A stretch of DNA of 39,790 nt from Candidatus Latescibacterota bacterium (GCA_016209865.1 JACQVL010000267.1:1-39790), one strand, 5' to 3'. Shown: positions 15,839-39,354, counted from the first letter of the stretch. Notes: generated from the sequence alone by a model not told the origin. Numbers and translations: made by a program.

Positions 15839-15899
15839 TACATCCTCGCTGGAAAATCAGTGACGAGTGACAAGTGGCGAGTGACGAGTAAAAGACTGG

Positions 15900-15919
15900 A
15901 TTCCCGCTTTCGCGGGAAT
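15900..15919. repeat. ATTCCCGC-TTTC-GCGGGAAT palindrome
   Basis: Two perfect 8-base arms flank a four-base loop, with GG before and GACA after. Similar units occur at 29466-29485 and 39363-39382. GGATTCCCGC...GCGGGAATGAC palindromes are widespread REP-like bacterial repeats. Confidence 0.8.
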
Positions 15920-15942
15920 GACAACCTGGCTTATGTACCAAT

Positions 15943-15970
15943 CTTATAGAGAACTGGTCTTACTCGTCAC
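15943..15970 (-). promoter_or_regulatory. Sigma70-like promoter whose -35 lies in a heptamer repeat
   Basis: On the minus strand GTGACG (15965-15970, part of a heptamer copy) precedes TATAAG (15943-15948) by 16 bases. The boxes match 4/6 and 5/6. It would drive the FG-GAP/ASPIC gene at 15838, placing the ATTCCCGC palindrome and the left heptamer array in the untranslated leader. Confidence 0.4.
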
Positions 15971-15998
15971 TGATCACTCGTCACTTGTCACTGCTCTT

Positions 15999-18900
15999 TT
16001 AATCATTCAACACCGAGATCGGCAATTTCTCCTGGTGGCCGCCAGCATCGATGATGATGATGTATAATCCACTCCGGACGAAACGCTTACCATCGTCCTT
16101 TCCATCCCACACTTCCACCATCGCGCCGGGCCCCATCGTCTGGTTCCGGCAGAGGACGCGCTCGAGCCGGCCGGCCAGGTTGTAGACCTCGACCGTAACC
16201 GGCATCGACTGGCCGAGTTTGAACGAGATCGCGGCCTCTTGGGTGTTGAACCGATTGCCTTGGGGCGACAGCACACGCGGCTGGGCGCGGAACTCCGAGA
16301 GCGCGACTCCCGTCGGCTGCGGACTGGTATCCTCGAACACCGCGTATGTTCCCAGCTTAATGACGACCGTGGTGACGGTCTTGGCGGTCTGGTTCACCGA
16401 CCCGCCGATCCGATCCCACGTGGTCGGCGTCGTGTCGTTCTGGCGGAAGATCGCCAATTTTGAAGCATCGACCCCGGACGGGAGCGTTCCGTATTTCATC
16501 GTCAGGGTGGCTGGTTTGGTCCCCTTCACCTGGAGATCCGCCGGGAGGAACCGGAACGCCGGGCCGACGAACCGCAGGGCTGCCGCGCTGCCGGGCCCCA
16601 CCACTTTTGGGAGGAAGGGGGCCAGAGCCGTCGAGTCGACCGGCTCGAGGGATAACTCCTTGTCCGCATCGAACGCGTTCGGTGGAATATAGAGACTGAC
16701 GTCGTTCGCTTCATCCTGAAATCGGCCGCCCTGGCTGGTGCTGACGACTTTTGCCGTCCGGAACGTCCACCGTTTGTCAGCCGACAGACGGTTGCCCACG
16801 ATATCTTTAATGCCCGCCGTTGCGACGACCTCGTACTCGGCGTCGGCGGCGAGTTTGGTGGACGGCGTAAACAAGGCGGTGTACGTGGCGGCATCATACG
16901 TCAGCGTACCCGTCACTGAGCCGGGCTGGTCGAGCCGGCGAGCCTTGAAGGTGTCTGATGTCAGCGATAAAGGGTCGATCGGCTTGGTGAACGTCGCCTT
17001 GATCGTGATAGAGGCGGATACCCCGAGTTGGCCGTCCGTCGGAACGGTTGAAGCCACGACCGGGATCGCGGTGTCGACGCGGAAGGTTCCGGCTTCCGTC
17101 ACCGGACTCATCACATTGCCTGCCAAATCTTTCGTCCCGCTCACGGCGATCACGGCCGTATCGGTCGGCACAGCGGACGTGATCGTCACTTTCCCCGTCC
17201 AGATCGGCCCGTTATACGAGAGCTGCTCCACCGGCACGGTCGGGCTCTTGTGGAGTTTCGGCGTAAACTCCACAGCCGGGCTGGCGGTGTTATCGACCCC
17301 GACCTTCTCATCGAAGTTGATGACGATCGTGACGACCGCCCCGATGCCCGCGATCGGGGGATCGACGCTCACGCTCGCCACCCGCGGCGGGGTGGTATCG
17401 ATGATAAACTGGCGTTCCGCCGACTCCGTCGATGTGGCCAGGCCAGCATCGATCGCCCGGACAGCCCAGTAGTACGTGCTATCGGCCAGGTTTTTCAGGG
17501 TATCGACGTTCGCATGGCCCTGACTGCCGAACCCGACCTGCCGGATTCCCGACACGATGTCGTTCTTGCCCGGCGCGGTGCCCACCCGCAGCGAGTACGT
17601 CAGGCCTGGCGCGACGGTCTCTGGGTCGGTGCCGTCATTCCAGGTGAACCTGACGGTGTTCCCGGTCGGCTGTGCGGTGAGACTGAGCGGGGCGGTCGGG
17701 GCAGAGTTGGGAGCCGTCTGGCCGGTGAGGTTGTCGAAGACCTGGGAGAACTCTTTAAAATTCGACCCCGTGCCCCCGGTCAACGCCAGGTCGAGGTCCC
17801 GGTCGTTATCGTAATCCGCCCAGGCGGCGGCGCTGAAGACCGAGCCGGGCAGCACCGCCACTGAGGTCTGTGTGAGCGTCCCCCCATCGTTCCGGTACAG
17901 AATCGTGACGACCTGGGAGTTGACGTCTTGACCGGTCAGGATGAGGTCGAGATCGCCATCGTTATCGTAATCGCCCCACGCGACCGTCCCGCCAAACGTC
18001 CCGGTGAGCGTTTGGGCGGCGGCGTACGTCCCCGTTCCGTTATTCGTGTACAGGGTCGCACGAGGAATGAACGAGGCATCCCCTCCAGTAATAGCCAGGT
18101 CCACATCTCCGTCGTTATCGACATCCCCAACGGCGAGGGCGGACGAGAACAAGCCGGTCAACGCCTGAGACGAATCGAGTATCCCACTGGTGTTCTTATA
18201 CACCTTCAGGATAGGGATAAACTCACTCGGCGAGCCGCTCTCCCCGCAGATGACCAGGTCGAGATCGCCGTCGTTATCGATATCCGCCCAGGCCAGTGTC
18301 CCGTTCGCCGTGCCAGTGATCTCCTGCGCGACGACCAGGGTGTCCCCAGGCCCCACATTCTTATAGATATAGGTGCTGCGGGCCCCACTCCGGTTCAATC
18401 CGGACGCGGCAAGGTCGAGCCGACCGTCATTATTATAGTCCCCCCAGGCAGCGCCCCCTTCTTTGAGATGGCTCAGATGCGTTGAATCATACTTTTGATT
18501 CGTATCGACCTGGAACGTCCCGGATGTATTTTTATAGAGGTACGTGAACGCGTTCCCGAACCGGTCCTCTCCCGACTGGAGCAGATCGAGGTCGCCGTCG
18601 CGGTCGTAGTCCCCCCAGACGAGTGCCCCGTTCTCCAGTCCGTTCAACGTGGACGTATTGTCCTGCGTGAGGGTGCCGACGTCATTCCGGTAGAGGAGGG
18701 TCCTGGCGTCCCCGTTGATGTCCTGACCCCCGATGACCAGATCGACCCATCCGTCGTTGTTGTAGTCGCCCCAGGCGGCCGCCTGGCCGAGGATGTTCTG
18801 GCGGAGTCCGACGAGTTGCTGTTCCGAGTTGACGAGACGCTGGATGATGATCGTATCCTGGGTCGCAAACGCGGATCGCTCGAACCCGCCGTCCACCGTC

Positions 18901-20405
18901 TGGACGCTCCAGTACAGGGAATCGACGCTGACCGGAAAGCGGAGCGTCTTGATGAGCGTCCGGCCGACGTTGCCCGGTCCGGCGCCTTTGTTCGCGTTCG
19001 ACCCGATGACGGCGGCGGAGAGCAATTCGTTGCCCCCTGGCGTCGTCCCCAGCCGCATGTTGTAGGTCAGGCTGGCCGCCGGGGTTTCAGCGGGAGCATC
19101 CGTCCCTTCCGTCCACCGGAAGACGATCCCTTTGCTCGTCACGAATGGTTTGGTCAGGGTCGGCGCGCCCGGCAGGGTGTTGGCCGTCCCGCTGTTGGTG
19201 TAGAGGGTGGTGAGCAGAGAGCCGTCGTCCCGCTCGCCGGTGACCAGCAAGTCGAGCCGGGTATCGCCGTTGACATCCCCCCAGGCGATCGCCCCGTTCA
19301 TCTCCCCGATCAGGGCGGGTTCGTTCGCTAAGGAGAAGCTGGCCCCCCCGTTGTTGAGGAAGACGGCAGTCGAGAGGGTGGTGAACTCATTCCGGCCGGA
19401 GACGCCCAGGTCGAGGTCGCCGTCGTTATCGAAGTCTCCCCAGGCCATCGTGCCGACCAATCCCTTGCCCCCGACCTGCAGGGAAGCCGCCTCCTCCAGC
19501 GTGCCCCGGAGCGCGTTGTTGTGGTACACCTTGAGGACGGCGTTCCAGTGCTCATCCCACCCGGAGATGGCCAGGTCGAGGTTCCCGTCGCGGTCGTAGT
19601 CGCCCCAGGCGAGCGACCCGCCGTACACCGGGGTCAACGAGATGTTGGACGCTTCGATCAGGAGGCCGTCCTGATTCAGGTAGACTTTGGTCGTCCGGAG
19701 GCCGTCGTTGCCCAGGCCCATCATCGCCAGGTCGGGCAATCCATCCCCGTCAAAATCCCCCCAGGCCACCGACCCGTTGCGCACCGCGACGATCGACTGG
19801 GTGATGTCTTCTGTCAGGATATCGTGGTCATTCCTGTACAACTTTGTCGCCACGAACCCGTTCTTATCGATGCCCGCGATCAGGAGGTCGAGCCGGCCGT
19901 CGTTCGTGTAGTCCGCCCAGGCGACTGCGCTGTACCGGAGTTGTTTCGTCTCGAAGAACGGCGGAGGACCGATGAGCTGAGCCGGGTCTTTCGTCAGCAC
20001 CCCGTTGACGTTCCGGTAGACTTCAGACACCCCGAAGACCGCGTCCCCGCTCGATCCCTGCCCGCTGATCGCCAGGTCGAGTTTCCCGTCGTTATCGACA
20101 TCCCCCCAGGCCAGGGAGCCCCAGATGAGACCGCTGAGTTGTTGTGCGGTATCTTCGGTCAGCATCCCGGCCGCGTTCTTGTACACCTTCGTGACCGCCT
20201 GGCCGGTGGCATCCAGCCCGGCGATCGCCAGGTCGAGGTCGCCGTCGTTGTCGATATCCCCCCAGGCGACCGCGCTCGCGCGCAGGTTTGGAAGACCGGG
20301 CGCGGTTTGGGTAAGCTGCGCACCGTGTGCTTCAAACCTCAACCCGGCCAGACCGAGACACAGAAGGACTGCCGAGAGCCATCCCACCTTTCGAGCGTAT
20401 GCCAA
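15999..20405 (-). CDS. Giant secreted protein with two seven-bladed FG-GAP propellers and a FlgD-like C-terminal tail
   Basis: The 1468-residue protein has a signal peptide (about 1-29), seven FG-GAP blades (about 35-405), an Fn3-like domain (about 410-530), seven more blades (about 540-905), a second Fn3-like domain (about 915-1010), Big_5-like Ig domains (about 1015-1220), a beta-rich stretch with a YIPPNAF motif, and a FlgD-like Ig tail (VTVEVYNLAGRLERVLC...VWDGKDDGKRFVRSGLYIII). Blades read AWGDIDNDGDLDLAIAG with calcium loops. Such tails resemble type A T9SS sorting domains, and PorV-like proteins are encoded nearby. TTG 20405 is the likely start, with AGGAG 8 bases upstream. It is probably exported to the surface as an adhesin or binding protein; its ligand is unknown. 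Confidence 0.87.
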   Translation of the reverse strand: MAYARKVGWLSAVLLCLGLAGLRFEAHGAQLTQTAPGLPNLRASAVAWGDIDNDGDLDLAIAGLDATGQAVTKVYKNAAGMLTEDTAQQLSGLIWGSLAWGDVDNDGKLDLAISGQGSSGDAVFGVSEVYRNVNGVLTKDPAQLIGPPPFFETKQLRYSAVAWADYTNDGRLDLLIAGIDKNGFVATKLYRNDHDILTEDITQSIVAVRNGSVAWGDFDGDGLPDLAMMGLGNDGLRTTKVYLNQDGLLIEASNISLTPVYGGSLAWGDYDRDGNLDLAISGWDEHWNAVLKVYHNNALRGTLEEAASLQVGGKGLVGTMAWGDFDNDGDLDLGVSGRNEFTTLSTAVFLNNGGASFSLANEPALIGEMNGAIAWGDVNGDTRLDLLVTGERDDGSLLTTLYTNSGTANTLPGAPTLTKPFVTSKGIVFRWTEGTDAPAETPAASLTYNMRLGTTPGGNELLSAAVIGSNANKGAGPGNVGRTLIKTLRFPVSVDSLYWSVQTVDGGFERSAFATQDTIIIQRLVNSEQQLVGLRQNILGQAAAWGDYNNDGWVDLVIGGQDINGDARTLLYRNDVGTLTQDNTSTLNGLENGALVWGDYDRDGDLDLLQSGEDRFGNAFTYLYKNTSGTFQVDTNQKYDSTHLSHLKEGGAAWGDYNNDGRLDLAASGLNRSGARSTYIYKNVGPGDTLVVAQEITGTANGTLAWADIDNDGDLDLVICGESGSPSEFIPILKVYKNTSGILDSSQALTGLFSSALAVGDVDNDGDVDLAITGGDASFIPRATLYTNNGTGTYAAAQTLTGTFGGTVAWGDYDNDGDLDLILTGQDVNSQVVTILYRNDGGTLTQTSVAVLPGSVFSAAAWADYDNDRDLDLALTGGTGSNFKEFSQVFDNLTGQTAPNSAPTAPLSLTAQPTGNTVRFTWNDGTDPETVAPGLTYSLRVGTAPGKNDIVSGIRQVGFGSQGHANVDTLKNLADSTYYWAVRAIDAGLATSTESAERQFIIDTTPPRVASVSVDPPIAGIGAVVTIVINFDEKVGVDNTASPAVEFTPKLHKSPTVPVEQLSYNGPIWTGKVTITSAVPTDTAVIAVSGTKDLAGNVMSPVTEAGTFRVDTAIPVVASTVPTDGQLGVSASITIKATFTKPIDPLSLTSDTFKARRLDQPGSVTGTLTYDAATYTALFTPSTKLAADAEYEVVATAGIKDIVGNRLSADKRWTFRTAKVVSTSQGGRFQDEANDVSLYIPPNAFDADKELSLEPVDSTALAPFLPKVVGPGSAAALRFVGPAFRFLPADLQVKGTKPATLTMKYGTLPSGVDASKLAIFRQNDTTPTTWDRIGGSVNQTAKTVTTVVIKLGTYAVFEDTSPQPTGVALSEFRAQPRVLSPQGNRFNTQEAAISFKLGQSMPVTVEVYNLAGRLERVLCRNQTMGPGAMVEVWDGKDDGKRFVRSGLYIIIIDAGGHQEKLPISVLND

Positions 20406-20428
20406 GGCTGCGTCTCCTTTGAAAAGCG

Positions 20429-20551
20429 GTGACGAGTGACGAGTAAAGATCAGGCTAAAGTTTAGGTTAAGATCGAGGAATGGTCAAAGATTATCACCCT
20501 CAACCTCAATCTTACCCTTTTTGTTCACTCGTCCCTTGTCACTCGTCACTG
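20429..20551. repeat. Paired inverted GTGACGA arrays with nested TTGAGG-type arms
   Basis: The left array is two GTGACGA copies (20429-20442). The right array is TGTTCAC, TCGTCCC, TTGTCAC, TCGTCAC (20522-20549), ending 4 bases before the stop of the response-regulator gene. Inside, GTTTAGGTTAAGATCGAGG faces CCTCAACCTCAATCTTACC, a second imperfect inverted pair. The interior contains a good promoter. The space holds no gene. Confidence 0.85.
20459..20487 (-). promoter_or_regulatory. Sigma70-like promoter inside the heptamer pair
   Basis: TTGACC (20482-20487) and TAAACT (20459-20464) on the minus strand are separated by exactly 17 bases and match 5/6 and 4/6. It would transcribe the giant FG-GAP gene from about 20452, leaving the left heptamer array in a 46-base leader before the TTG start. 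Confidence 0.5.
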
Positions 20552-20553
20552 CA

Positions 20554-21321
20554 TTACTCGCCAAACTTATACCCGACCCCCCGAACCGTCTGGATGAAGA
20601 CCTGGCCGCCTCGTTCGATCTTCACCCGCAGCCGCCGAACGTGGACGTCGACGGTCCGGGTTCCTCCGTAGTAGTTGTAGCCCCAGACCTCGGTCAACAG
20701 GTGTTCACGGGTGAAGACCCGTCCCTGTCGAGTCGCTAAGTATTTGAGGAGTTCGTACTCTTTCAGCGTGAGGTCGACCGGTTCGCCCCGGACAGTCACC
20801 TCGTAATTGCCGAGGTCGATCACCAGGTCGCCCCGCATGATGATGTCTTTGACCTGCACCCCGTGGCGGCGCCAGACGGCACACCGGATGCGCACTTCGA
20901 CTTCGCGGGGATCGTAGGGCGCGCAGACGAAATCATCAAACCCACTGGTTAAATCTAAGTATCCGATGGCTTCCCGTGTTGTGAGCAAGATCACGGTCGC
21001 CTTCCGGCGGTCTTTGTGGTGACGCAGCACGTTGGCCAGGCGGGACAGGCTGAAGTCCGACGACGTGCAGTGCAGGAGCAGGACGTCTGGGGATTCAGCA
21101 ACCGGGGGGAGCCGGTCGATCGATTCGAACGGGACGACTCTGAGCGGGTACCCGGAGCGCTGCAGCCAGCGGTTCACCGGCTCCACGATGTCGAGCGTCT
21201 CGGTCAGGAGGAAGACTCGGGGAAGTCCCGGCCCGTCGCCCCCGACGGAAGAGAGGGGAGGGATGTGGGGCGCAAGGGAACTGTAGGCCAGGACGGACTC
21301 CGGCTTCTTCGGCGTGGGCAT
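20554..21321 (-). CDS. OmpR-family response regulator with a degenerate receiver domain
   Basis: The C-terminal half is a clear winged-helix OmpR/PhoB DNA-binding domain: VDLTLKEYELLKYLATRQGR, FTREHLLTEVWGYNY, RTVDVHVRRLRVKIE and QTVRGVGYKF. The N-terminal half keeps the receiver fold rhythm but not its chemistry. The phospho-acceptor strand reads PDVLLLHC, with His84 where Asp is required, the acidic pair is lost (FLLTETLD), and the Lys-Pro motif is APYDP. It probably does not use Asp phosphorylation. ATG 21321 gives 255 residues; an upstream ATG at 21372 lies inside a palindrome and was not chosen. ssb is just upstream on the same strand, and no histidine kinase is nearby. The target genes are unknown. 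Confidence 0.88.
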   Translation of the reverse strand: MPTPKKPESVLAYSSLAPHIPPLSSVGGDGPGLPRVFLLTETLDIVEPVNRWLQRSGYPLRVVPFESIDRLPPVAESPDVLLLHCTSSDFSLSRLANVLRHHKDRRKATVILLTTREAIGYLDLTSGFDDFVCAPYDPREVEVRIRCAVWRRHGVQVKDIIMRGDLVIDLGNYEVTVRGEPVDLTLKEYELLKYLATRQGRVFTREHLLTEVWGYNYYGGTRTVDVHVRRLRVKIERGGQVFIQTVRGVGYKFGE

Positions 21322-21352
21322 GGACGATCCCGATGTCTGCGAGGGATGTGGC

Positions 21353-21390
21353 GAGACGCCCCGACAGGGCATCCCCTGACGGGGCGTCTC
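21353..21390. repeat. Long palindrome between ssb and the regulator gene
   Basis: GAGACGCCCCG (21353-21363) pairs perfectly with CGGGGCGTCTC (21380-21390), and the loop adds a CAGGG/CCCTG extension. It begins about 10 bases past the ssb stop. No T-run follows, so it may be a mobile palindromic repeat or an mRNA-stabilising hairpin rather than a classical terminator. Confidence 0.7.
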
Positions 21391-21399
21391 TACGGGACA

Positions 21400-21816
21400 C
21401 TAAAACGGCAGATCATCATCCGTCTCGAACGTTGACGGCAACTCCTCGGGCGGCGACGCGGCGGCCTCCCGGCTTTCTCCAGACTGTCGAGGGCCGAGCA
21501 TCTGAAGATGGTTGGCGACGATCTCGGTCATCCATTTCTTCGTCCCGTTCTGGTCTTCCCAGGATCGCGTCTGGATCCGCCCCTCGACATAGACGGAACT
21601 CCCCTTCTTCAGGTATTCAGCGCACGTCTCCGCCAGTTTATCCCAGGCGACGATGCGATGCCATTCTGTCTGCTCTTTTTTCTCCCCTTCTTTCGTCGTC
21701 CACTGGTTCGTCGTGGCCATCCGGAAGTTGGCGACGGCCCGGCCCGCCGGGGTGTATCGCAACTCAGGGTCGGCACCCAGGTTGCCGACCAGGATGACTT
21801 TGTTGACACTGGCCAT
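21400..21816 (-). CDS. ssb: Single-stranded DNA-binding protein
   Basis: The 138-residue protein has the bacterial SSB OB-fold ([54 protein letters not shown]), a short flexible linker, and the acidic C-terminal tip DDDLPF that binds replication and repair partners. It coats single-stranded DNA during replication and repair. The start is firm: AGGAG at 21825-21829 lies 8 bases before the ATG, under a near-consensus promoter at 21864-21892. The linker is shorter than in E. coli SSB but within the family range. Confidence 0.97.
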
Positions 21817-21863
21817 CTGTCTCGCTCCTTTCTTTTTCGTGTAACTTTGATTCTTAATACGTG

Positions 21864-21892
21864 AGTATAGTAGAATTTCGTGATCGAGTCAA
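21864..21892 (-). promoter_or_regulatory. Near-consensus sigma70 promoter for ssb
   Basis: TTGACT (21887-21892), a 17-base spacer and TATACT (21864-21869) on the minus strand match 5/6 and 5/6. Transcription would start near 21857, about 41 bases before the ATG at 21816. This is the strongest promoter I see in the window. Confidence 0.8.
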
Positions 21893-21987
21893 GCATTTTT
21901 CCCGCGTGGCTCGAAGATTCTTGAGCAGGACGGACTGCGTGTCCCCCTTCACCTCCCGACGCCGTCCAGATGGGGAAGAAAAACCAC

Positions 21988-22017
21988 TTGCCCTTTGAAA
22001 AACCTGTACGGTATATT
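21988..22017 (+). promoter_or_regulatory. Possible promoter for lptF
   Basis: TTGCCC (21988-21993) and TATATT (22012-22017) are 18 bases apart on the plus strand. It is divergent from the ssb promoter and would give a leader of about 160 bases containing the octamer repeat pair. Confidence 0.4.
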
Positions 22018-22054
22018 GGAAGAGTCGGAAAGAAGGGGAAATTATCGTAAAAGA

Positions 22055-22159: not shown

Positions 22160-22183
22160 TTCTCTCGAATCCCGGATTTACCC

Positions 22184-23476
22184 ATGCGTCTCGTCTCCCG
22201 CTACATCCTCATCGCCCACGTCGGCCCGTTAGTGTTCGGGTTCAGCGTGATCACCTTCGTGCTCATCATGGATTTTATCTTCACGATCGCCGACCTGATC
22301 GTGGGCAAAGGACTGGATGCCTGGATGGTCCTGGAGGTGTTCGGGCTGAACCTGGCCTGGATCGTCGCGCTGTCCGTCCCGATGGCGGTGTTAGTGGCGA
22401 CCCTGATGGCCTTCGGCCGGCTCGCCGCCGACAATGAGATCACCGCGCTCCGGGCGGGCGGTGTCAGCCTGTACCGGATGATCCTCCCCGTCTTCATCGC
22501 CAGCGGATTTTTAGCGGTCGGGTTGATCTATTTCAACGATGTCATCCTTCCGGAGGCCAACTACCGGGCGCGGGGTCTGATGACGGACATCCATCGCGCC
22601 AGGCCGACTCTGGCGTTTAAGGAAGGCATCTTCATGACCGACTTCCCGGGGTACAGCATCCTGATCGACCGGCTGAACCCCCGGACGAACGACGTCTCCA
22701 GCGTCACCCTGTATGAGACGAGCGAGGCCGGGGCGCCGCGCGTCCTGATCGCCCGCCGGGGGCGATTCGACCTCTCGCCCGACGGGAGTGTCATTACGAT
22801 CAGTCTGTTCGACGGGGAAGTCCACCAGTTCGACGCGAAGGTGCCGGGCCGGTACCTCAAGGAAGTCTTCGCCCGGCAGCGGATCACCATTCTCGACACG
22901 CCGCGCGGGGTGCTGCGGACCGAGGCGGGGGCGCGCGGGGATCGGGAGATGAGCATCGCCATGATGCGCGCCCGCATCCGGCAATGGCAGCAGGACGTCG
23001 AGCAGAGCCGCGGCCGAATCCGGCAGATGCGGGCGGCGGAGCAGACGGAGCAGCGCGTGACTCCATCTCCCGCTCCGCTCCTGGACGCTCCCCCGACCCA
23101 CCCGCAGAGCCGCGGCCAGCAGATGAAACAGGAAGAGCAACTCCTGAGCGCCCGCCAGCAACAGGTCGACGCCTATCTGGTCGAAATCCACAAGAAATAT
23201 GCCATCCCCGTCGCCTGTCTCGTCTTCGTCCTGATCGGCGCGCCGCTCGGCATGATCGTCAGACGAAGCGGGATCACTATCGGGGTCGGAGTCAGTTTGG
23301 GGTTCTTTTTGCTCTACTGGGCGTGCCTGATCGGCGGCGAGGAGCTGGCCGACCGGGGGATACTCAGCCCGCTCTGGGCGATGTGGTCGGCGAATTGCCT
23401 GATCGGCGGAGCCGGACTGGCGCTCGTCCTTCGGCTCGCACGTGAACGGCCGTTCTTTAAAATCAGTGACAAGTGA
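22184..23476 (+). CDS. lptF: LPS export ABC transporter permease LptF
   Basis: The 430-residue inner-membrane protein has the YjgP/YjgQ layout: three N-terminal helices (ILIAHVGPLVFGFSVITFVLI onward), a periplasmic jelly-roll of about 200 residues, and three C-terminal helices after a Gln/Arg-rich stretch. GRLAADNEITALRAGGVSLYRM matches the cytoplasmic coupling region that contacts LptB. With LptG and LptB it extracts LPS from the inner membrane. ATG 22184 was chosen because upstream codons are translated octamer repeat. No good ribosome site is visible. The TGA lies inside a GTGACGA array, so its last residues are repeat-derived. It is unlinked to lptABC 15 kb away. Confidence 0.9.
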   Translation: MRLVSRYILIAHVGPLVFGFSVITFVLIMDFIFTIADLIVGKGLDAWMVLEVFGLNLAWIVALSVPMAVLVATLMAFGRLAADNEITALRAGGVSLYRMILPVFIASGFLAVGLIYFNDVILPEANYRARGLMTDIHRARPTLAFKEGIFMTDFPGYSILIDRLNPRTNDVSSVTLYETSEAGAPRVLIARRGRFDLSPDGSVITISLFDGEVHQFDAKVPGRYLKEVFARQRITILDTPRGVLRTEAGARGDREMSIAMMRARIRQWQQDVEQSRGRIRQMRAAEQTEQRVTPSPAPLLDAPPTHPQSRGQQMKQEEQLLSARQQQVDAYLVEIHKKYAIPVACLVFVLIGAPLGMIVRRSGITIGVGVSLGFFLLYWACLIGGEELADRGILSPLWAMWSANCLIGGAGLALVLRLARERPFFKISDK

Positions 23477-23597
23477 CGAGTGGCGAGTGACGAGTAAAAG
23501 AAGGTTGAGATTGAGGTTAAGAACCTTATAGTTGTCCCTTAATCGGAACCTGATTTTACCTTGTCACTTGTCACTCGTCACTCGTCACTCGTCACTG
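23466..23597. repeat. Paired inverted GTGACGA arrays between lptF and lptG
   Basis: The left array (23466-23493) is GTGACAA, GTGACGA, GTGGCGA, GTGACGA and contains the lptF stop codon. The right array (23561-23595) is TTGTCAC twice and TCGTCAC three times, ending 7 bases before the lptG ATG. The interior carries GGTTGAGATTGAGG and a promoter. Confidence 0.9.
23505..23532 (+). promoter_or_regulatory. Sigma70-like promoter for lptG inside the heptamer pair
   Basis: TTGAGA (23505-23510), a 16-base spacer and TATAGT (23527-23532) match 5/6 and 5/6. The -35 box is made by the TTGAG-type inner repeat. Transcription would start near 23539, putting the right heptamer array in the lptG leader. Confidence 0.5.
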
Positions 23598-23602
23598 CTT
23601 CT

Positions 23603-24705: not shown

Positions 24706-24713
24706 TGCGGCAC

Positions 24714-28250: not shown

Positions 28251-28260
28251 TTATCCTTCC

Positions 28261-28284
28261 CGAACCCCGAACCCTGAATCCCGA
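28261..28284. repeat. Three tandem heptamers (CGAACCC type) between metK and ahcY
   Basis: CGAACCC, CGAACCC and TGAATCC follow each other at 28261-28281. They are a single-arm heptamer array within a 59-base spacer. No SAM or SAH riboswitch fits in this gap. Confidence 0.65.
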
Positions 28285-29485: not shown

Positions 29486-29497
29486 GACAGGCTGAGA

Positions 29498-30475: not shown

Positions 30476-30504
30476 CGAGCGCCTCGTCGTGTTACAACAC
30501 AATC

Positions 30505-30635
30505 GGTGGTCGGTAGTCAGTAACACCAGAAAAGTTAGTATAAAATCATTCAAAGAGAGAAAACGGATGTGATGAAAATCACATTTCCCAGACCACCTGC
30601 TCTCACCGACCACCGACTACCGACCACCGACCACC
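30505..30635. repeat. Facing GGTGGTC/GACCACC heptamer arrays
   Basis: The left array is GGTGGTC and GGTAGTC (30505-30518). The right array (30608-30635) is GACCACC, GACTACC, GACCACC, GACCACC and contains the TAG stop of the inositol-phosphatase gene. Between them lie a -10 box and the CRP-like site. Confidence 0.85.
30537..30583 (-). promoter_or_regulatory. CRP-like site and -10 box upstream of the nucleotidyltransferase gene
   Basis: TGTGA-TGAAAA-TCACA at 30568-30583 is an exact match to the TGTGA-N6-TCACA CRP consensus, and the symmetry extends one base each way (A...T). On the minus strand a TATACT -10 box follows at 30537-30542, without a good -35. The site is centred about 45 bases upstream of the predicted start near 30530, roughly where an activator would replace a -35. 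CRP/FNR-family recognition is inferred. Confidence 0.6.
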
Positions 30636-31576
30636 GAATCTTTTACATACGCCACGAGTGCCTGGTGAACCGCCGGGGTGGCGCTGGCTGCGCACGAGAG
30701 CACGTTCTGCTCCGTCGTGTCGAGCACCGGGACGCTCCCCAGGTCAGTCCCGTCCGCGTCCGTTACCACCCCGCCCGCTTCCTGGACGATCAGGACGGCG
30801 GCCGCGATATCGTACGGAAACAGGCCGAGCACCCGCCCCTGGCCCGCCGCCAGGAAGTCCGCCCGGCTCTCCGGCCGCTGGGCGAGGATCCATCCTCCGA
30901 CGTCCAGGTACGCGTCGAGCTGGCCGGTCGTGAGACGGGTGAGCGCATACGACGAACTGTTGAACACGAACACCCCGGCCCGGACGGACGACCGGTCGAT
31001 CAACGGGCCCAGGACGTCGATGACGTGCTGAGCGGGACGCCCGACCAGTTCAAACCCCCAGAAGACCTCGCCGAGGTCCGCGCCCGTCGCACGCGTCGGG
31101 ACGAGACACGGCCGGCCGTCGAGCCGGGCGCCGCGCCCGCGCTCCGCCGTGAAACACCGGCCGGACTGGATCTCGATCACACACCCGGCCCGGACATCCC
31201 GGAGCCGGGGGGTCTCAAGACACGGGCACACGGCGACCGACACGCACGCCTGCTCGAACCCGACGGCGGCGGGCCGGGTCCCGTCGATCGGGTCGACGAT
31301 AAGCAGCCAGTCGGGCGAAGGGGCGACCTCGACCAGTCCCTTGTCCTCGGAGTAGTACGCCACCTGGACATCCGTCCGCTGAAGGTAATCCTGCAAGGCC
31401 GTCTCGGCCACCCGGTCGATCTGGAACGTCGCATCCCCGCTGGCCGCGGTCCCGACCACCTCCCGTGCGGTCCGGTGGCCGGCGAACGGGAGGACGGCCG
31501 ATCGGATGGCGCGCGCCACGGCCTGAGCCAGGCCGGTCACCGAGCTCGTTTCGTCAACTCCTCCCAGCCTACTCAT
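30617..31576 (-). CDS. Inositol monophosphatase family protein
   Basis: The 319-residue protein has the IMPase/FBPase-IV metal sites: SEDKG (Glu), WLLIVDPIDGTRPA (Asp-Pro-Ile-Asp-Gly-Thr), and FPYDIAAAVLIVQEAGG. It should be a Mg-dependent phosphatase for an inositol, fructose-1,6-bis- or 3'-phosphoadenosine phosphate; the substrate cannot be chosen. It is about 50 residues longer than SuhB because of insertions in the middle. The ATG overlaps the ptsI stop by eight bases, and it ends the PTS operon. Its last residues and TAG (DSVVGGR) are the translation of a GGTGGTC heptamer array. Confidence 0.85.
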   Translation of the reverse strand: MSRLGGVDETSSVTGLAQAVARAIRSAVLPFAGHRTAREVVGTAASGDATFQIDRVAETALQDYLQRTDVQVAYYSEDKGLVEVAPSPDWLLIVDPIDGTRPAAVGFEQACVSVAVCPCLETPRLRDVRAGCVIEIQSGRCFTAERGRGARLDGRPCLVPTRATGADLGEVFWGFELVGRPAQHVIDVLGPLIDRSSVRAGVFVFNSSSYALTRLTTGQLDAYLDVGGWILAQRPESRADFLAAGQGRVLGLFPYDIAAAVLIVQEAGGVVTDADGTDLGSVPVLDTTEQNVLSCAASATPAVHQALVAYVKDSVVGGR

Positions 31577-33332: not shown

Positions 33333-33598
33333 TCCGGCTCTCCGAATCGATCCTCGACGAGCTGAGCCAGGGTCGCGATCGCGTCCGCCTCATCCTCGCC
33401 GGTTGCCTGAATCGTGATCGCGCTGCCGTACTCGGCGGCAAGCATCATGACCCCCATAATGCTCTTTCCGTTCACCGTCAGATCATCTTTACTGATGAGA
33501 ATCTCAGAGCGGAACTTCGAGGCGGTCTGGGCGATCTGCTCGGCAGGGCGCATGTGGAGTCCTGTCTTATTCCGAATCGACACCGTGATTTCAGCCAT
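33329..33598 (-). CDS. ptsH: Phosphocarrier protein HPr
   Basis: The 89-residue HPr has the catalytic His15 in KTGLHMRPA and the regulatory Ser46 in GKSIMGVMML, the residue phosphorylated by HPr kinase. It receives phosphate from enzyme I. The presence of Ser46 agrees with hprK just upstream. The gene overlaps ptsI by four bases; the 65-base gap to hprK, where an EIIA gene sometimes lies in other bacteria, holds none. Confidence 0.96.
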   Translation of the reverse strand: MAEITVSIRNKTGLHMRPAEQIAQTASKFRSEILISKDDLTVNGKSIMGVMMLAAEYGSAITIQATGEDEADAIATLAQLVEDRFGEPE

Positions 33599-33663
33599 TG
33601 ACCGAGACGCGAATTCCTCTCACGGCAGACACCCTGGCGAGAGAGACACACGACCGGGCAGCC

Positions 33664-34629
33664 CTACTCAAAGTCCTCACGCAGGTACTTGCTATCGGCT
33701 GCCCGGAGTTTCATCAGATCGACGAGGCGTCGGTTCAAGTCCTGCGCGGGGTTCTGGCCGACCAGCTTCAGCAGATGATTCAGGGCGATGACTTCGGCAA
33801 TGACCGTGATATTCTTTCCGGGGACGATCGGAGTCATCACGAAGGGGATTTCGACGCCTAAGATCGTCTTCGTTTTATCTTCGAGGCCGATGCGTTCATA
33901 ATCAACTTTGTCGTCCCATTCCACCAGATGGACTTCCACTTCGACCCGTTTCTTCAGCCGGATGGCGCGGATGCCGAACATGCTGGGGATGTCGATGATC
34001 CCGATCCCACGAATCTCCATGTAGTGCTGGAGGAGCTCATTCCCGGTGCCGATCAGGACCCCTTGTTTCATCTGGTAGATCGTGACGATATCGTCTGCGA
34101 CTAAGCGATGGCCGCGCTCGACCAGGTCGAGGGCGGTCTCGCTCTTCCCAATCCCGCTCTTGCCGGTAAACAACAGCCCGATCCCGTAGACATCCACCAG
34201 CGAGCCGTGGACGGACGTCCGGGGCGCGAAATACGCCTCCAGGTAGTCGGCGAGTTGGTGGGTAAAATCGACTGTCGAGAGCGAGGTGCCCAGGACGGGG
34301 GTGTCCAGTCGGGTCGCGGCCGTCGCCAGTTCGACCGGCGGCGGGATGGCCTTCGTGATGATCACGCAGGGAATCCCGAACTCCAGCATCGTCTCGATCG
34401 ACTTCAAGCGGTCGGCCGAGGACAGACTGGAGAGGTACATCATCTCCGTCTCGCCCAGGACCTGGATGCGGTTGTGGGCGAACCGAGCGGTGAACCCGGC
34501 CAGGGCCAGTCCGGGCCGGTTCACCTCACTGTTGGCGATCTGCCGGGTGAGGCCGACATCGCCGGTCTGCGACGTGAGCCGCAAGTCCGCCCGTTTGAGC
34601 AATTCGCTGATTGACAGGGTTCGAGGCAT
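33664..34629 (-). CDS. hprK: HPr kinase/phosphorylase
   Basis: The 321-residue protein has an N-terminal HPrK domain (about 1-130) and a C-terminal kinase domain with His in HGSLVDVYG, the P-loop GKSGIGKS (about 156-163), LVADD, and the family signature MEIRGIGIIDI. It phosphorylates Ser46 of HPr with ATP or PPi and reverses the reaction with Pi, linking carbon or phosphate status to regulation. It starts directly after hpf and precedes ptsH-ptsI. Confidence 0.95.
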   Translation of the reverse strand: MPRTLSISELLKRADLRLTSQTGDVGLTRQIANSEVNRPGLALAGFTARFAHNRIQVLGETEMMYLSSLSSADRLKSIETMLEFGIPCVIITKAIPPPVELATAATRLDTPVLGTSLSTVDFTHQLADYLEAYFAPRTSVHGSLVDVYGIGLLFTGKSGIGKSETALDLVERGHRLVADDIVTIYQMKQGVLIGTGNELLQHYMEIRGIGIIDIPSMFGIRAIRLKKRVEVEVHLVEWDDKVDYERIGLEDKTKTILGVEIPFVMTPIVPGKNITVIAEVIALNHLLKLVGQNPAQDLNRRLVDLMKLRAADSKYLREDFE

Positions 34630-34630
34630 G

Positions 34631-34972
34631 CTACTCCGGGCTCGGTTCGGTCGGGATCGTCTCCGCGAGCGCGTTTCGTTTCACGCGATGGTTCTGCAGC
34701 TTGTCCTTGTATTTCTTCAACTGCCGTTCCATCTTCACTGCAGCCTGGTCGATGGCCGCGTAGACGTCCGCGGCTTCTTCCTTGCTGGTCAGGACGGCGC
34801 CATCGACCTGCATCGTCATCTCGACGGTGTACCGGTATTTCTCGTGGATGAGCGTCAGGTCAGTGCTGAGGATATGATCGAAATACCGGCCCAGGCGTTT
34901 GATCTCCTGCTCGGCATGGTGCTTGTGCGCGTCGGCAAGGTCAAAATGTCGGGCCGTGATCGTGATCTGCAT
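34631..34972 (-). CDS. hpf: Ribosome hibernation promoting factor, short form
   Basis: The 113-residue protein begins MQITITARHFDLADAHKHHAEQ and has the RaiA/YfiA fold with a conserved Lys/Arg-rich helix (AAVKMERQLKKYKDKL). It lacks the C-terminal dimerisation domain of long HPF. It would bind idle 30S subunits in stationary phase. Its place after rpoN is the classical rpoN-hpf arrangement, although here a heptamer repeat pair of 170 bases separates the two. Confidence 0.95.
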   Translation of the reverse strand: MQITITARHFDLADAHKHHAEQEIKRLGRYFDHILSTDLTLIHEKYRYTVEMTMQVDGAVLTSKEEAADVYAAIDQAAVKMERQLKKYKDKLQNHRVKRNALAETIPTEPSPE

Positions 34973-34995
34973 CGACTACCCCTTTCTGAGAATCA

Positions 34996-35142
34996 GTGAC
35001 AAGTGACGAGTGACGAGTTAAGGCTCACATTGAGGAATGGTTGAGGTGAATGAGAAATGACCGAAAGTCCTCAACCTCAACCTTTACTGCCCCGCAGCTT
35101 GCTACAGGAATTGTTTGACTCGTCACTGGTCACTCGTCACTG
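34996..35142. repeat. Paired inverted GTGACGA arrays between rpoN and hpf
   Basis: The left array is GTGACAA, GTGACGA, GTGACGA (34996-35016). The right array is TCGTCAC, TGGTCAC, TCGTCAC (35120-35140), ending 5 bases before the rpoN stop. Inner arms GGTTGAGGTGAATGAG and CCTCAACCTCAACC form a second inverted pair. I find no convincing promoter in this copy. Confidence 0.88.
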
Positions 35143-35145
35143 CTT

Positions 35146-36585
35146 TTAGACTTTTTTCCGGTATCGGGCGGGCATGATGCCCAGTTGGTCCCGGTATTTG
35201 GCGATCGTCCGCCGGGCGATGTCCACCCCTTGCGCGTGCAGGACGTCCACGATCTTCTGATCGCTCAGCGGGTCGTGAGGGTCTTCCTCTTTGATGAGTC
35301 GGGCGATGCGGTCTTTCACGCTCTTCGTGGACAGTTCTTCCCCGTCTTCGGTCTCGATCATCCCGTCGAAGAAGAATTTCAGCGGAAACACCCCGCGCGC
35401 GGTCTGCACATACTTGCTGGCGGTCACCCGGCTGACCGTCGCCGGATGCATGTTGATCGCGTCCGCGACCTCCTGTAAGACCATCGGCTTGAGGGAGGGG
35501 AGGCCCTTGTCGAAGAAGCCGCGCTGGGCCTTGACGATGTAATTCATCACCTTCAACATCGTCGTCCGCCGCTGCTCGATCGAGTGGACGAGCCAGCGGG
35601 CGTCGTTCAGCTTCTGGCGGACATACTGGCGGGCATCGTCTGACGCGTGACTCGACCGGTTGAGAATCGTGAGGTACGTCCCGTTGATCCGCAACCGCGG
35701 CAGGTTCCGGTCGTTCAGCATGACGACGTACTCCCCGTCCACTTTCTCGACGATGAGGTCCGGGATAATCGGGATGGCGGTCTCACTCCCGATCGAGAGG
35801 CCCGGTTTGGGGTTGAGCTCAGCGATCTGCTGGAGCGCGTCCTGAATCGCTTCCTGGGACACCTTCAACGCTTTCTTGATCACCGCATACCGGCGATTCT
35901 GCAGGTCATCCAGGTGGTCGTGGATGATGCGGGCGGCGAGGGTATCTTCCTGATCGTCGGCCCGGAACTGGATCAAGAGGCATTCCCGAAGATTTCGGGC
36001 CCCAACCCCGACCGGCTCGAGGGTCTGCACCACCGTCAGGATCTGTTCGACCGTGGCCGGGTCCGTCCCGAGTTTCTCGGCGATCTCCTCGACCGGACAG
36101 GTGAGGTACCCGTCTTCCCCCAGGTTCCCGATGATGTACTCGCCGATCTCCGTCTCATAGACCGAGAGGCTCAACAGATGGAGCTGGGAGATCAGATGGT
36201 TGGCTAATGTCGTCCCCGTCTTCCCCTCGCGGTCGAGGAGATTCCGGTCTTCATCCCTCTCAGTCTGTTCGTGATGCTCGTATTCATACGCCACGCCATC
36301 CCGGAGGTACGCATCCCAATCGATCTCGTTCGACGTGGACTTGAGTCCGAGCTCTGCCGAGTCAACTTGCCCGTTCGTCTCGACGGGACTCTCGACGCTG
36401 TCGGCGCTCTGTTCCAGCTCATCCGGCTCGGTCGTCTCGTCCTCCTCTTCGAGCATCGGGTTGGTCTGGAGCTCCTGTTTCATCACCTGCTCGAGCTCCA
36501 GCAGCGGGATCTGGAGCAGCTTGAGCGACTGGATGAGCTGAGGCGAGATCGTCTGTGAGAGTTGGGTTCGTAATCCGAGTTCCAT
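35146..36585 (-). CDS. rpoN: RNA polymerase sigma-54 factor
   Basis: The 479-residue sigma factor has the Gln/Leu-rich activator region I (LSQTISPQLIQSLKLLQIPLL), an acidic region II, the core-binding domain, and the DNA-binding C-terminus with the RpoN box ARRTIAKYRDQLG. It directs transcription from -24/-12 promoters with enhancer-binding activators. ATG 36585 is preferred over ATG 36591 because AGGTGA (36593-36598) is 7 bases from the first and only one base from the second. It follows lptB by 28 bases. Confidence 0.96.
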   Translation of the reverse strand: MELGLRTQLSQTISPQLIQSLKLLQIPLLELEQVMKQELQTNPMLEEEDETTEPDELEQSADSVESPVETNGQVDSAELGLKSTSNEIDWDAYLRDGVAYEYEHHEQTERDEDRNLLDREGKTGTTLANHLISQLHLLSLSVYETEIGEYIIGNLGEDGYLTCPVEEIAEKLGTDPATVEQILTVVQTLEPVGVGARNLRECLLIQFRADDQEDTLAARIIHDHLDDLQNRRYAVIKKALKVSQEAIQDALQQIAELNPKPGLSIGSETAIPIIPDLIVEKVDGEYVVMLNDRNLPRLRINGTYLTILNRSSHASDDARQYVRQKLNDARWLVHSIEQRRTTMLKVMNYIVKAQRGFFDKGLPSLKPMVLQEVADAINMHPATVSRVTASKYVQTARGVFPLKFFFDGMIETEDGEELSTKSVKDRIARLIKEEDPHDPLSDQKIVDVLHAQGVDIARRTIAKYRDQLGIMPARYRKKV

Positions 36586-36613
36586 GACCATATCACCTGA
36601 CGATGAGGATGGA

Positions 36614-37351
36614 TCAATCCAGCCTGAAACGTTCGCCTAAGTACACCCGCCGGACGTCCGGGTCGTTCGCCAGCTCCGTGGCGGTGCCGGATTTCAGGAT
36701 CTGGCCGTCGGCGATGATGTACGCCCGGTCTGTGATCTGGAGGGTCTCGCGCACCGTATGGTCGGTGATGAGCACCCCTAAATCCCGTTCTTTCAGCCGG
36801 CGAATGATCGACTGAATATCCTCGACGGCGATCGGGTCGATCCCGGCGAACGGCTCATCGAGGAGGATGAACTTGGGGTCGGAGGCCAGCGCCCGGCTGA
36901 TCTCGGTCCGCCGTCGTTCCCCGCCGGACAGGGTATACGCGGTGCGTCGGGCGAGGTGCGCGATGCCAAAATCCTCCAGCAGGCCTCGCATCCGTTCCCG
37001 CCGTGCCCGTGACGACAACGGCATCGTCTCCAGGATGGCCCGGAGGTTGTCTTCGACCGTCATCCGCCGGAAGATCGAGGGTTCCTGCGACAGATACCCG
37101 ATCCCCTTGCGGGCGCGTCGATACATCGGCCAGGCAGTGATATCCTCCAGGTCGATCTTCACCCGCCCTTCGTCCGGCTTGATCAGCCCGACGATCATGT
37201 AGAACGTCGTCGTCTTGCCCGCCCCGTTCGGGCCGAGCAGTCCGACGACCTCCCCCCGGCCCACCCGGATGCTGACGGTATCCACCACCCGGCGTTTCTG
37301 GTACACCTTGACAAGACGATCAGTCCACAAGTACAGCGGGTCCCCAGTCAC
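36614..37351 (-). CDS. lptB: LPS export ABC transporter ATP-binding protein
   Basis: The 245-residue ATPase has Walker [18 protein letters not shown]-loop [17 protein letters not shown], signature [16 protein letters not shown], Walker [14 protein letters not shown] and the switch [18 protein letters not shown] and PFAGIDP are typical of LptB rather than branched-chain amino-acid transporters. It powers LptF/LptG, encoded by genes 13-15 kb away. The gene starts 12 bases after lptA. Confidence 0.96.
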
Positions 37352-37363
37352 GCCGGCATCCTT

Positions 37364-38683
37364 TTACTGAACGGACGCCCCACGACGGGGGCTCAGGCCG
37401 TTCCCCTGACGCGGCGTCGTCTGGCCCGGAGCCTGGTACGTGCCGACCACGCTCCCCTCGGCCGCGACCCGCACCAGTCGTCCCCGGTCGATGAACAGGG
37501 TGATCTGGTTGGCACTGACCCGATTCGGCCCACGCGCCTCGGTCCCCTGCCGTGGCGGGTAATACAGGCTGGTCGCGTTCTGCGACGCGATGATCTCCCG
37601 GACGATATCCTGGTCGAACGACACGGTCAGGACGCGCCCCTGGATCGTGCTCTTCCGCGACGACCCCGCCGCGCTATCATCTGGGGCGTACGACCCCGAC
37701 GCATTCCCCGTAATCACCGCCCGGGTGACTGTCTCCTCCGTGAGCGACAGGACGGCTTCTTGTCCCCGCAGCTCGCTCGTCCCTTCCCAGAGGACCGGCG
37801 ACCCGGTCAGCCCCGCCCGTTTTTCCCGGCTGTCGTACGTCACCGCCTCACACCGGCCGCGCAGTTGCCCACGAGTCACGACTACCTGGCCCTGTGCCTC
37901 CGCCCGCTTCTCCAGGAACGCGTAACTCATCCGCGTCCCCGTCACGATCACATCCCGATCCGATCCCTGGACGGCTTTCACTAAACGAGGCTGCCCCGTC
38001 AGGATCGCCCGCTCCGGTTTCCGGGTGTATTCCGCCCGCTGGCAGGTGACGGTGATACGTTCTTTCCGGTCGATGACCGTCACTGAGTCTTGCGCCACCG
38101 CGCGCTTCGCGGAATCCGCGTCCGCGAAGAAGTACTCCAGACGCCGGCCGGTGATGACGACTTCTTCGCCGTCGTGCGCCCTGACCAGTTGAGGCGCCCC
38201 GGTCAGCACCGCCCGACGCGGGCTGGAGAAATACTCCGCCTGCCCACACGTGATTGTCGTGCTCTCTTTCGGGTCGAGGATCGTGACCGCCCCGTGCGCG
38301 ACCGCGCGACGATCCCGTTCGAAGTACATCACGTGATCAGCCGTGAGAGTGCCGTCGCGATGGGCCATCCGGACACGGCCGTCGAGGATGACCTCCCCCC
38401 GGCCGCGGAGATACCGGGCCTGTTCGCAGGTCAGGGTCGTCTGACCATGCGTAATGCGGACGTGGCCGATCAGGTCGAACTGCTCGTCGACGCTCGTCCC
38501 GCGCCAGGTGTCCGCATGCTCGACGACGATCGGGGGGGACGGGGCCGGCGCGGCGGCGGACGCCCTCGGCGGGAAGCCGAACAGCGTCACGACCCCAACC
38601 AGACCATACGGGATGTATCTCCCGCCTCGAACGATCCGCGACATTAATATAAAAGGGAATAGGAGTCTCGTCAAGACTATCAT
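37364..38683 (-). CDS. lptA: Long LptA/OstA-type LPS bridge protein
   Basis: The 439-residue exported protein has a signal sequence (hydrophobic VGVVTLFGFPPRASAAA) and about six OstA-like beta units, each with the pattern of a tag such as DGTLTADHVMYFERDRRAVAHG, VTCQRAEYTRKPERAILTG or LRGRCEAVTYDSREKRAGLTG. E. coli LptA is about 185 residues, so this version would give a longer jelly-roll stack across the periplasm. ATG 38683 overlaps the lptC stop by four bases; an internal ATG at 38644 is the alternative. The C-terminus is low-complexity. Confidence 0.88.
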   Translation of the reverse strand: MIVLTRLLFPFILMSRIVRGGRYIPYGLVGVVTLFGFPPRASAAAPAPSPPIVVEHADTWRGTSVDEQFDLIGHVRITHGQTTLTCEQARYLRGRGEVILDGRVRMAHRDGTLTADHVMYFERDRRAVAHGAVTILDPKESTTITCGQAEYFSSPRRAVLTGAPQLVRAHDGEEVVITGRRLEYFFADADSAKRAVAQDSVTVIDRKERITVTCQRAEYTRKPERAILTGQPRLVKAVQGSDRDVIVTGTRMSYAFLEKRAEAQGQVVVTRGQLRGRCEAVTYDSREKRAGLTGSPVLWEGTSELRGQEAVLSLTEETVTRAVITGNASGSYAPDDSAAGSSRKSTIQGRVLTVSFDQDIVREIIASQNATSLYYPPRQGTEARGPNRVSANQITLFIDRGRLVRVAAEGSVVGTYQAPGQTTPRQGNGLSPRRGASVQ

Positions 38684-39354
38684 CGCTCCCGCAATTCATC
38701 GACCCGTTTCGAGATTTCCTCCCCCCGGTCGAACCGTCCCTGCACATTCCGCGTGATCTCCCACCGCTCCAGGTTCGGGTCGGCTTCGAACCCGATGCCC
38801 GTGATCACGTCTTTGTCGGTCGAAATCCGCACCGGCGCGTCAGTCCGAATCCGGTTGAGGTTCTCGACCCATTGCAGGGAATCCGTCTCCAGTGTCCCGC
38901 CCCGGGTGTTCGTGACGACGACATGACCGATCGCGGACATCGTGCGGGTCTGTTCGTCGATCGTCCCCCGGTCCGCCGTCAACGTCGAGGTCCGCTGTCC
39001 ATCCTGGTCGTAGAACTCGATCCGAAGACCCTGCTCGAGCTTCGTCTGTCTCGACCTGGAAGAGTGCGCGATGTAGCTCGCCGTCACGACGACCCGCTGC
39101 TTCCCATCCTGCAGCAGATAGATCGTCGCGTCCCAGGTCTCCTGGTCGGGCGCGTCCGCGTTCCGCGCAGGGGATTCGGGGATCGACGGGCTGCTCCCGC
39201 ATCCACCGCAGAGCCAGAGGGCGGAAGAGACCAGGAGAATGAGCCAGCGTCTCGGTGGTCGGTGGTCGGTGGTCGGGAAAAACAGTGACGAGTGACGAGT
39301 GACGAGTGACGAGTCAGGCGGCCTTTTCATCGGACATCTATCGTTCGTTGTCAT
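38680..39354 (-). CDS. lptC: LptC-like LPS export protein with repeat-encoded N-terminus
   Basis: The mature part (WDATIYLLQDGKQRVVVTAS through IEFYDQDGQRTSTLTADRGTI and EITRNVQGRFD) is an LptC beta-jelly-roll, upstream of lptA-lptB. A hydrophobic segment (WLILLVSSALWLCGGC) suggests a lipoprotein or anchored form. Between the possible starts (ATG 39354 or 39330) and this segment, codons SSLVTRHSSL and TTDHRPPRR are translations of GTGACGA and GGTGGTC heptamer arrays. No ATG, GTG or TTG exists after the arrays, so they are probably translated as the n-region of the signal peptide. Confidence 0.85.
   Translation of the reverse strand: MTTNDRCPMKRPPDSSLVTRHSSLFFPTTDHRPPRRWLILLVSSALWLCGGCGSSPSIPESPARNADAPDQETWDATIYLLQDGKQRVVVTASYIAHSSRSRQTKLEQGLRIEFYDQDGQRTSTLTADRGTIDEQTRTMSAIGHVVVTNTRGGTLETDSLQWVENLNRIRTDAPVRISTDKDVITGIGFEADPNLERWEITRNVQGRFDRGEEISKRVDELRER
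39254..39312. repeat. GGTGGTC and GTGACGA heptamer arrays inside the lptC 5' coding region
   Basis: Three GGTGGTC copies (39254-39274) and four perfect GTGACGA copies (39285-39312) lie side by side, ten bases apart, within the N-terminal codons of lptC. There is no facing partner array here. Confidence 0.9.

Follow-up and report, generated by a model that had tools for sequence, protein, structure and literature searches.

Hairpins with facing heptamer arms at gene edges in a Candidatus Latescibacterota genome and in other bacteria

In a stretch of 39,790 nucleotides from a Candidatus Latescibacterota bacterium (hereafter the window, meaning this whole stretch), short tandem arrays of the heptamer GTGACGA lie between genes in pairs that face each other. 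What are these pairs, how did they arise, and are they a peculiarity of this genome? An earlier note on this DNA had described four such elements as a single GTGACGA family and had left their role open, naming transcription termination and mobility among the candidates.

Facing heptamer arrays in the window and its genome

All four elements are present, with their arms located by scoring, and further heptamer arrays occur beside them (window coordinates):

15860..15991, no strand: GTGACGA hairpin element 1, arms 15860-15892 and 15959-15991, flanked by two FG-GAP repeat genes
15900..15919, no strand: nested ATTCCCGC...GCGGGAAT palindrome, a separate dispersed repeat within element 1
20429..20549, no strand: GTGACGA hairpin element 2, arms 20429-20447 and 20524-20549; its inner pair is approximate and of GGTTGAG type
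23466..23595, no strand: GTGACGA hairpin element 3, arms 23466-23498 and 23563-23595, separating two LptF/LptG permease genes
34996..35140, no strand: GTGACGA hairpin element 4, arms 34996-35021 and 35115-35140, in the rpoN/hpf gap, with an inner GGTTGAGG/CCTCAACC pair
39285..39317, plus strand: single GTGACGA array inside the N-terminal coding part of the minus-strand gene lptC
39252..39276, plus strand: TCGGTGG heptamer array adjoining the lptC GTGACGA array on the outside in the same direction (two words in a row)
3555..3626, no strand: facing pair with related but differing arm words (GGATTTT type and GGATTGC type) and a 3-bp centre
4530..4561, plus strand: single TCAGGGG heptamer array of the CAGGGGT family
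28259..28284, minus strand: single CCCGAAC heptamer array of the CGGGGTT family
30604..30637, minus strand: single CACCGAC heptamer array of the GGTCGGT family

The interiors lie between facing arms as described, although they are slightly shorter than the 75-105 bases given earlier (66, 76, 64 and 93 between the scored arms of elements 1 to 4). A nested TTGAGGT/CCTCAACC pair had been reported for three copies; it is clear at 34996 and only approximate at 20429 and 23466, and in the copy at 15860 a ATTCCCGC/GCGGGAAT palindrome stands in its place. The single array within lptC (window 38680-39330) was recovered as well. Together with the adjoining TCGGTGG array it is translated, in the lptC frame, into a basic extension of the N-terminus (DSSLVTRHSSL...TTDHRPPRR), which precedes the lipoprotein-type signal of LptC. 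The description of the elements as holding promoters is weak: eight promoter-like sites were found over 20 kb against 3.9 +- 1.4 expected, and three of these (23505, 23581 and 20487) lie inside elements.

The arrays are far in excess of chance, and they are not restricted to this contig. Allowing up to two mismatches, the degenerate 14-mer GTGACGAGTGACGA has 24 matches in the window, compared to 0.64 +- 0.86 in dinucleotide shuffles. Across the window's genome, which is a fragmented draft of 3.75 Mb and 83% complete, exact GTGACGAGTGACGA occurs 239 times and the reversed-word control 0 times. Several contigs (L032, L071, L074, L083, L086 and L107) end in or near heptamer arrays; the assembly probably breaks at such arrays, and genome-wide counts may thus be underestimates.

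To describe orientation we used a 915-kb sample consisting of the window and 80 loci, of which 20 regions were picked because they had matches, a choice that cannot bias orientation. The sample contains 125 arrays, more than half of them single (71). Neighbouring arrays less than 300 bp apart face inwards in 27 of 27 pairs, with none pointing apart and none in the same direction; facing is one of the four classes that random orientation would produce. Neither of the outcomes named earlier as speaking against the family, random relative orientation and restriction to this contig, was thus observed. Facing pairs are also six-fold more frequent than independently placed arms would produce (22 vs 3.7). 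The genome holds about a hundred or more intergenic hairpins whose arms are rows of facing heptamers.

Read from the outside, the arm consensus is AAAA-[GT]CA-GTGACGA-GTGAC[GAC]A-GTGACGA(-GTGACGA)-GTAAAA, mostly with three to four units. The interiors of the 27 pairs are unrelated and have no common backbone; what they have in common is other dispersed repeats, chiefly the TTCCCGCGAAAGCGGGAA palindrome. Folding all 27 pairs as RNA gave a median energy of -62 kcal/mol, and the median z relative to mononucleotide shuffles was -7.0. Arm variants showed no excess of covariation within elements over between-element or shuffled arms, and hairpin-templated correction of the arms was rejected on this ground. 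Single arrays are not more decayed than paired ones (unit purity 0.89 vs 0.87), so that an arm may itself be a unit, and the idea of singles as dead halves fits poorly. The earlier picture of a dispersed, hairpin-forming element with facing heptamer arms, variable copy number and nested interiors is thus borne out.

Two further dispersed repeats accompany the arrays. The palindrome TGTCATTCCCGCGAAAGCGGGAATCCA, which we take to resemble Neisseria dRS3-type repeats, is a separate repeat that often lies inside or beside heptamer arrays; it matches up to about 40 times across the 915 kb sampled. Another hairpin, (T)GTAGGGGCGAATCTTGTATTCGCCCCGATGCGGGCGATCACAAGGATCGCCCCTACGG with TTTTGATCATCAAAATTCATCA-type flanks, often adjoins single GTGACGA arrays (for instance at L070:10139, L074:107, L079:11014 and L080:22388, among others).

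GTGACGA is one word among several, and the claim of a single family was too narrow. Tandem Repeats Finder gives period 7 as the commonest period in the window's genome (285 of 503 merged arrays), with words that include GTGACGA, GGATTTT, AAGGACG, GGTCGGT, CGGGGTT, CAGGGGT, GGATTGC, GTGAAGA and TGAACGA. About ten of the heptamer words share the facing-hairpin plan. When all words are considered, there are 54 inverted and 2 direct cases of same-word neighbours, and G excess falls on the left arm in 50 cases, with no C-first case. The same polarity holds elsewhere, with G-first to C-first counts of 62:1 in Pyrinomonadaceae loci and 46:4 in other carrier loci. A few pairs carry different words on their two arms (window 3555-3626; L071:16725-16792), and two words may stand in a row on one arm, as at window 39252-39317.

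Position at gene edges

Gene starts are predictions from a simple codon-usage gene caller. With these, the median distance from the outer arm end of the pairs is 4 bp to a stop codon or 22 bp to a start. Of 25 pairs whose position could be assigned, 22 lie between co-directional genes. After removal of the element, the remaining gap has a median of 21.5 bp, and 86% of the remainders are 53 bp or shorter, compared to 6% at random intergenic positions. As the arms abut stops (about 4 bp) and end about 22 bp before starts, the hairpin fills a short operon gap, for instance in lptF/lptG and rpoN/hpf. The functions of the genes at the junctions we looked at are diverse.

Several arms overlap the stop codon, with the heptamer's TGA serving as the stop. 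Many genes with stop-edge arrays in the window's genome end in this way, on the TGA inside GTGACGA. Since 7 is prime to 3, three GTGACGA units stop all three frames; as a general feature, a three-frame stop cassette was rejected, because it holds for GTGACGA and fails for several other words.

The short gap at rpoN-hpf can be compared to that of relatives. In members of the same order it measures 35-67 bp and contains no element; the arms and loop of element 4 are thus an insert of the window's lineage.

A classic role in termination, which had been left open earlier, is not supported. Intrinsic terminators were called at 13 sites against 12.9 expected, none of them on the arms, and about 4.5 of the 10 nt that follow an arm are T; with calls not above chance, we rejected the terminator reading. 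No Rfam family matched at the gathering score in the window and four carrier loci. Among the roles proposed earlier, those of an mRNA-level hairpin and of copying between loci are the best candidates that remain.

Replacement, nesting and copying at orthologous junctions

Evidence on how the hairpins change comes from Pyrinomonadaceae rather than from the window's genome. Here we compared the sisters BP_15 and BP_17, which are about 97% identical at the loci, and the more distant MAG110 and MGR_bin132 (roughly 70-90%). Between the sisters the heptamer family is kept at most sites, and four hairpins are swapped whole:

L128:7243 GTGACAA vs L353 GTGATGA
L128:4149 vs L351 GTTGTCA
L120:1511 vs L348 TAAATGG
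L185:1965 vs L289 AAAGGTA/AAGGGGG

At two more sites (L350 vs L121; L364 vs L164) a second hairpin of an AATCGTG word sits in the loop of one sister. Against the distant pair, by our reading, the junction carries a hairpin of another heptamer in roughly 17 of 28 comparisons (e.g. L306 AGTGCTG, L264 TTTCAGT and L370 GTACTGA), the family is kept in about 6 and there is no hairpin in about 5. At one junction, a hairpin of 140-144 bp in both BP_15 and BP_17 corresponds to a gap of 2 bp in MAG110. A MAG110 hairpin (L384) has arms of period 8, ACGCGGGG ACACGGAG ACGCGGCG ACGCGGAG, and the plan is therefore not strictly limited to seven bases.

Between the sisters, identity is 97% in the flanks, 94% in the arms and 86% in the loops, so that the idea of arms reshuffling faster than loops was wrong; unit number differs between orthologues at 7 of 17 sites. 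Several BP_15 loops are closer to another BP_15 locus than to their BP_17 orthologue. Loop-comparison scores are noisy for very short loops, and that of site 2, where one locus was set against itself, was disregarded; sharing is clear for sites 7 and 16, which have GTTAAAGCAGCACTCCGGTCTTTAAACTTGTCTTG in common, and for sites 10 and 18, which share most of a nested hairpin.

Could such hairpins grow where they stand, without any mobility? Period-7 slippage together with template switching around a small palindrome would build them in place, and abundant arrays would convert each other. The dominance of period 7 among tandem repeats, the variation in unit number between orthologues and the existence of arms with different words fit this explanation, as does the failure to find a transposase, a reverse transcriptase or target duplications in the genomes searched. 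It does not account well for the exchange of whole units between sisters that are about 97% identical, with no intermediate, for loops and inner hairpins common to distant loci, or for one word in about a hundred places. We therefore see growth in place as a possibility on the unlikely side.

The explanation that we prefer, and hold with about even confidence, is that these are non-autonomous hairpins similar to REPINs or foldback elements, which spread by copying and act as intercistronic hairpins. It is supported by the orientation of the arrays (27 of 27 facing, 54 inverted to 2 direct, 50 G-first to none), by gene-edge placement together with short remainder gaps and the element-free rpoN-hpf gap of relatives, and by swaps, nested gains and loops shared between loci but not with the orthologue. 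The higher sister identity of arms than of loops, the fold z-score and the excess of facing pairs support it further. It is weakened because Y1, RVT_1 and target-site duplications were not found in the genomes searched, because the loops in the window's genome are unrelated and because singles show no more decay than pairs.

According to this proposal, a facing pair would be one non-coding unit composed of an arm, a loop and a second arm. Such units would have been inserted, or rebuilt, where co-directional genes leave a short gap. The tandem-heptamer arms would be kept, and the loop would be free to vary and able to receive another hairpin. Units would spread within a genome by copying, loops included, possibly through a hairpin or single-stranded copying intermediate or through template switching of the repair type. 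At a given junction an old hairpin could be replaced by one from another heptamer family, such that junction and architecture persist and the sequence does not. In the mRNA, the unit would fold into a long intercistronic hairpin between an A-rich start and a T-rich end. Such a hairpin may be tolerated, and be partly useful, as a spacer that affects segmental mRNA decay or readthrough; it is placement and folding that suggest this role in the mRNA.

Selection might instead be the primary cause: a hairpin would be needed for segmental decay, readthrough control or start shielding, any heptamer would serve, and words would turn over. The precise position taken within operons, from a stop to a start region, the very strong folding, the occupancy that is kept while words change and the better conservation of arms than of loops would all be expected. 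Base occupancy is high in these genomes, however, and shared occupancy alone is thus no proof of selection on the sites. Moreover, arm variants do not covary within elements, over half of the arrays stand alone, some orthologous junctions have no hairpin and gene functions at the junctions are diverse. We consider such a selected regulatory RNA structure improbable as the main cause.

Returning to spread by copying, we looked for its usual drivers. The search for mobility enzymes covered Y1 and RVT_1. The Y1 transposase (PF01797) was not found in the 83%-complete window genome, in BP_15 or in BP_17, three rich carriers, and mobilisation by RAYT/Y1 was rejected for this reason; PF01797 is present in 13 of 17 other carriers. 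For the window's genome, a fragmented draft, the absence of an enzyme is not certain. The reverse transcriptase RVT_1 was not found in four genomes. Reverse-transcriptase or telomerase-like addition of heptamers at DNA ends had been considered because it would explain both the facing polarity and the hybrid arms; it was rejected on this result and because the elements interrupt conserved operons and do not mark rearrangement junctions. Terminal inverted repeats, a feature of MITEs and foldback elements, are present. Flank words are no longer than in shuffled sequences (3.96 vs 4.00 in the window's own genome, 4.31 vs 4.22 in Pyrinomonadaceae), giving no sign of target-site duplication. As the usual hairpin drivers were not found, template switching by the replication or repair machinery is a serious alternative to transposition.

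Relation to known repeats and distribution across phyla

Heptamers in cyanobacteria, the STRR sequences, are reportedly described as direct arrays that occur with small dispersed repeats. The earlier comparison to STRR holds for the unit length, and small palindromes nested in arrays are a further likeness, whereas the facing plan is not known from STRR. The foldback (FB) transposons of eukaryotes have a variable or unrelated loop between inverted-repeat arms, and these arms are built from short tandem sub-repeats. The sub-repeat arms are alike; the hairpins here are bacterial, far shorter and show no target duplication, and no transposase is known for them.

Of the two closest precedents, one is found in Xanthomonas and Nostoc, where GGGAATC and GGGGA(C/T)T heptamers are mostly intergenic and mostly between co-directional genes, with 70 and 75 convergent GGGAATC pairs in two Xanthomonas genomes (Rehm et al. 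2015, PMC4692102). There the G-rich strand is sense near stops and antisense near starts, a quadruplex was proposed and no role was found (PMC4692102). Both the convergent close pairs of tandem heptamers and the gene-edge rule, with sense arrays at stops and antisense arrays at starts within 50 bp, recur in our data (inverted 54 to direct 2; medians of 4 and 22 bp). The hairpins had been called undescribed, which holds only in part, as convergent pairs and the gene-edge rule are on record for Xanthomonas. The Rehm repeats are one G-rich word, compared to many words, nested hairpins, word swaps at orthologous junctions and many phyla here.

Structures of the G-quadruplex or i-motif type, as proposed for the GGGAATC arrays, would agree with the unit length, the convergent pairs and the gene-edge rule in PMC4692102, and some families here are G-rich (CGGGGTT, CAGGGGT). 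A quadruplex needs the GGG tract of the Xanthomonas word, however, and GTGACGA contains no G tracts at all, not even GG, while most other words, AAGGACG and GGATTTT among them, lack GGG and follow the same plan. We therefore rejected the quadruplex, which is very improbable as a common explanation. One plan covers about ten words in this genome and many others in further phyla; its cause must therefore be a general one.

Hundreds of intergenic arrays of the heptamer TAACTGA lie near gene ends in Beggiatoaceae and are patchy across phyla (MacGregor 2015, PMC4679880). Unlike the hairpins described here, they form 169 direct sets and one inverted, with the forward orientation close to start codons. 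REPINs, the other of the closest precedents, and BIMEs are associated with transposases of the RAYT type (Bertels and Rainey 2011, PMC3116915; Di Nocera 2013, PMC3733652). They have in common with our hairpins the inverted doublet, the variable spacer, the long hairpin, the extragenic position, the high copy number and the copying within a genome. Their arms are palindromic REP sequences, whereas those here are tandem heptamers, and three REPIN features fail: a Y1 in the genome (it was not found in the genomes richest in heptamer hairpins), compensatory arm changes and singlets that are more decayed.

The distribution shows how far the plan extends. Genomes of 15 same-order relatives yielded one GTGACGA 14-mer, and facing pairs of other heptamers occur in two relatives (G011 and G013); within one order, the plan is thus common to families that use different words. 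We scanned one genome per species (257 Gb) for the pattern GTGACGAGT-N(41-101)-GTCACTCGTCACT and found at least 114 stretches with a GTGACGA facing pair, compared to a chance number estimated at a few. By record title, the matches listed come from at least 11 phyla: Acidobacteriota, Chloroflexota, Bacteroidota, Nitrospirota, Pseudomonadota, Desulfobacterota, Cyanobacteriota, Planctomycetota, Verrucomicrobiota/Lentisphaerota, Cloacimonadota and Fibrobacterota. Aligned matches from other phyla have similar arms and, in many cases, the same placement from stop to start. Among 20 genomes drawn across the domain, one 20-kb piece had a facing pair; the feature is therefore widespread but not general.

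Relative to the open-licence literature, what is new is that the plan extends across phyla and to words unable to form quadruplexes, that hairpins nest, that loops are copied and that words are swapped at fixed junctions. Bacterial heptamers have so far been treated word by word (STRR, GGGAATC, TAACTGA), each with its own story, quadruplexes among them. More tentatively than the preferred reading of copied hairpins, we propose a class of bacterial hairpins in which architecture rather than sequence is inherited: arms and loop would be replaceable wholesale, and what would persist across many phyla is the period of 7, the facing of the arms and the leading position of the G-rich arm. This would imply that whatever copies or builds the hairpins, or selects them, recognises plan and gene edges instead of sequence. 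Because sister species can differ in the whole word at a fixed junction, the origin of the arrays is open to direct testing. Should the hairpins be mobile, they would rank with the smallest mobile elements for which no transposase is known; should they be selected, they would be a frequent unannotated part of operon structure.

Lastly, ten IMG/VR contigs (L410-L419) carry a GTGACGA facing pair. They may be phage, prophage or misassigned host DNA, and they could be a pointer to a vector.
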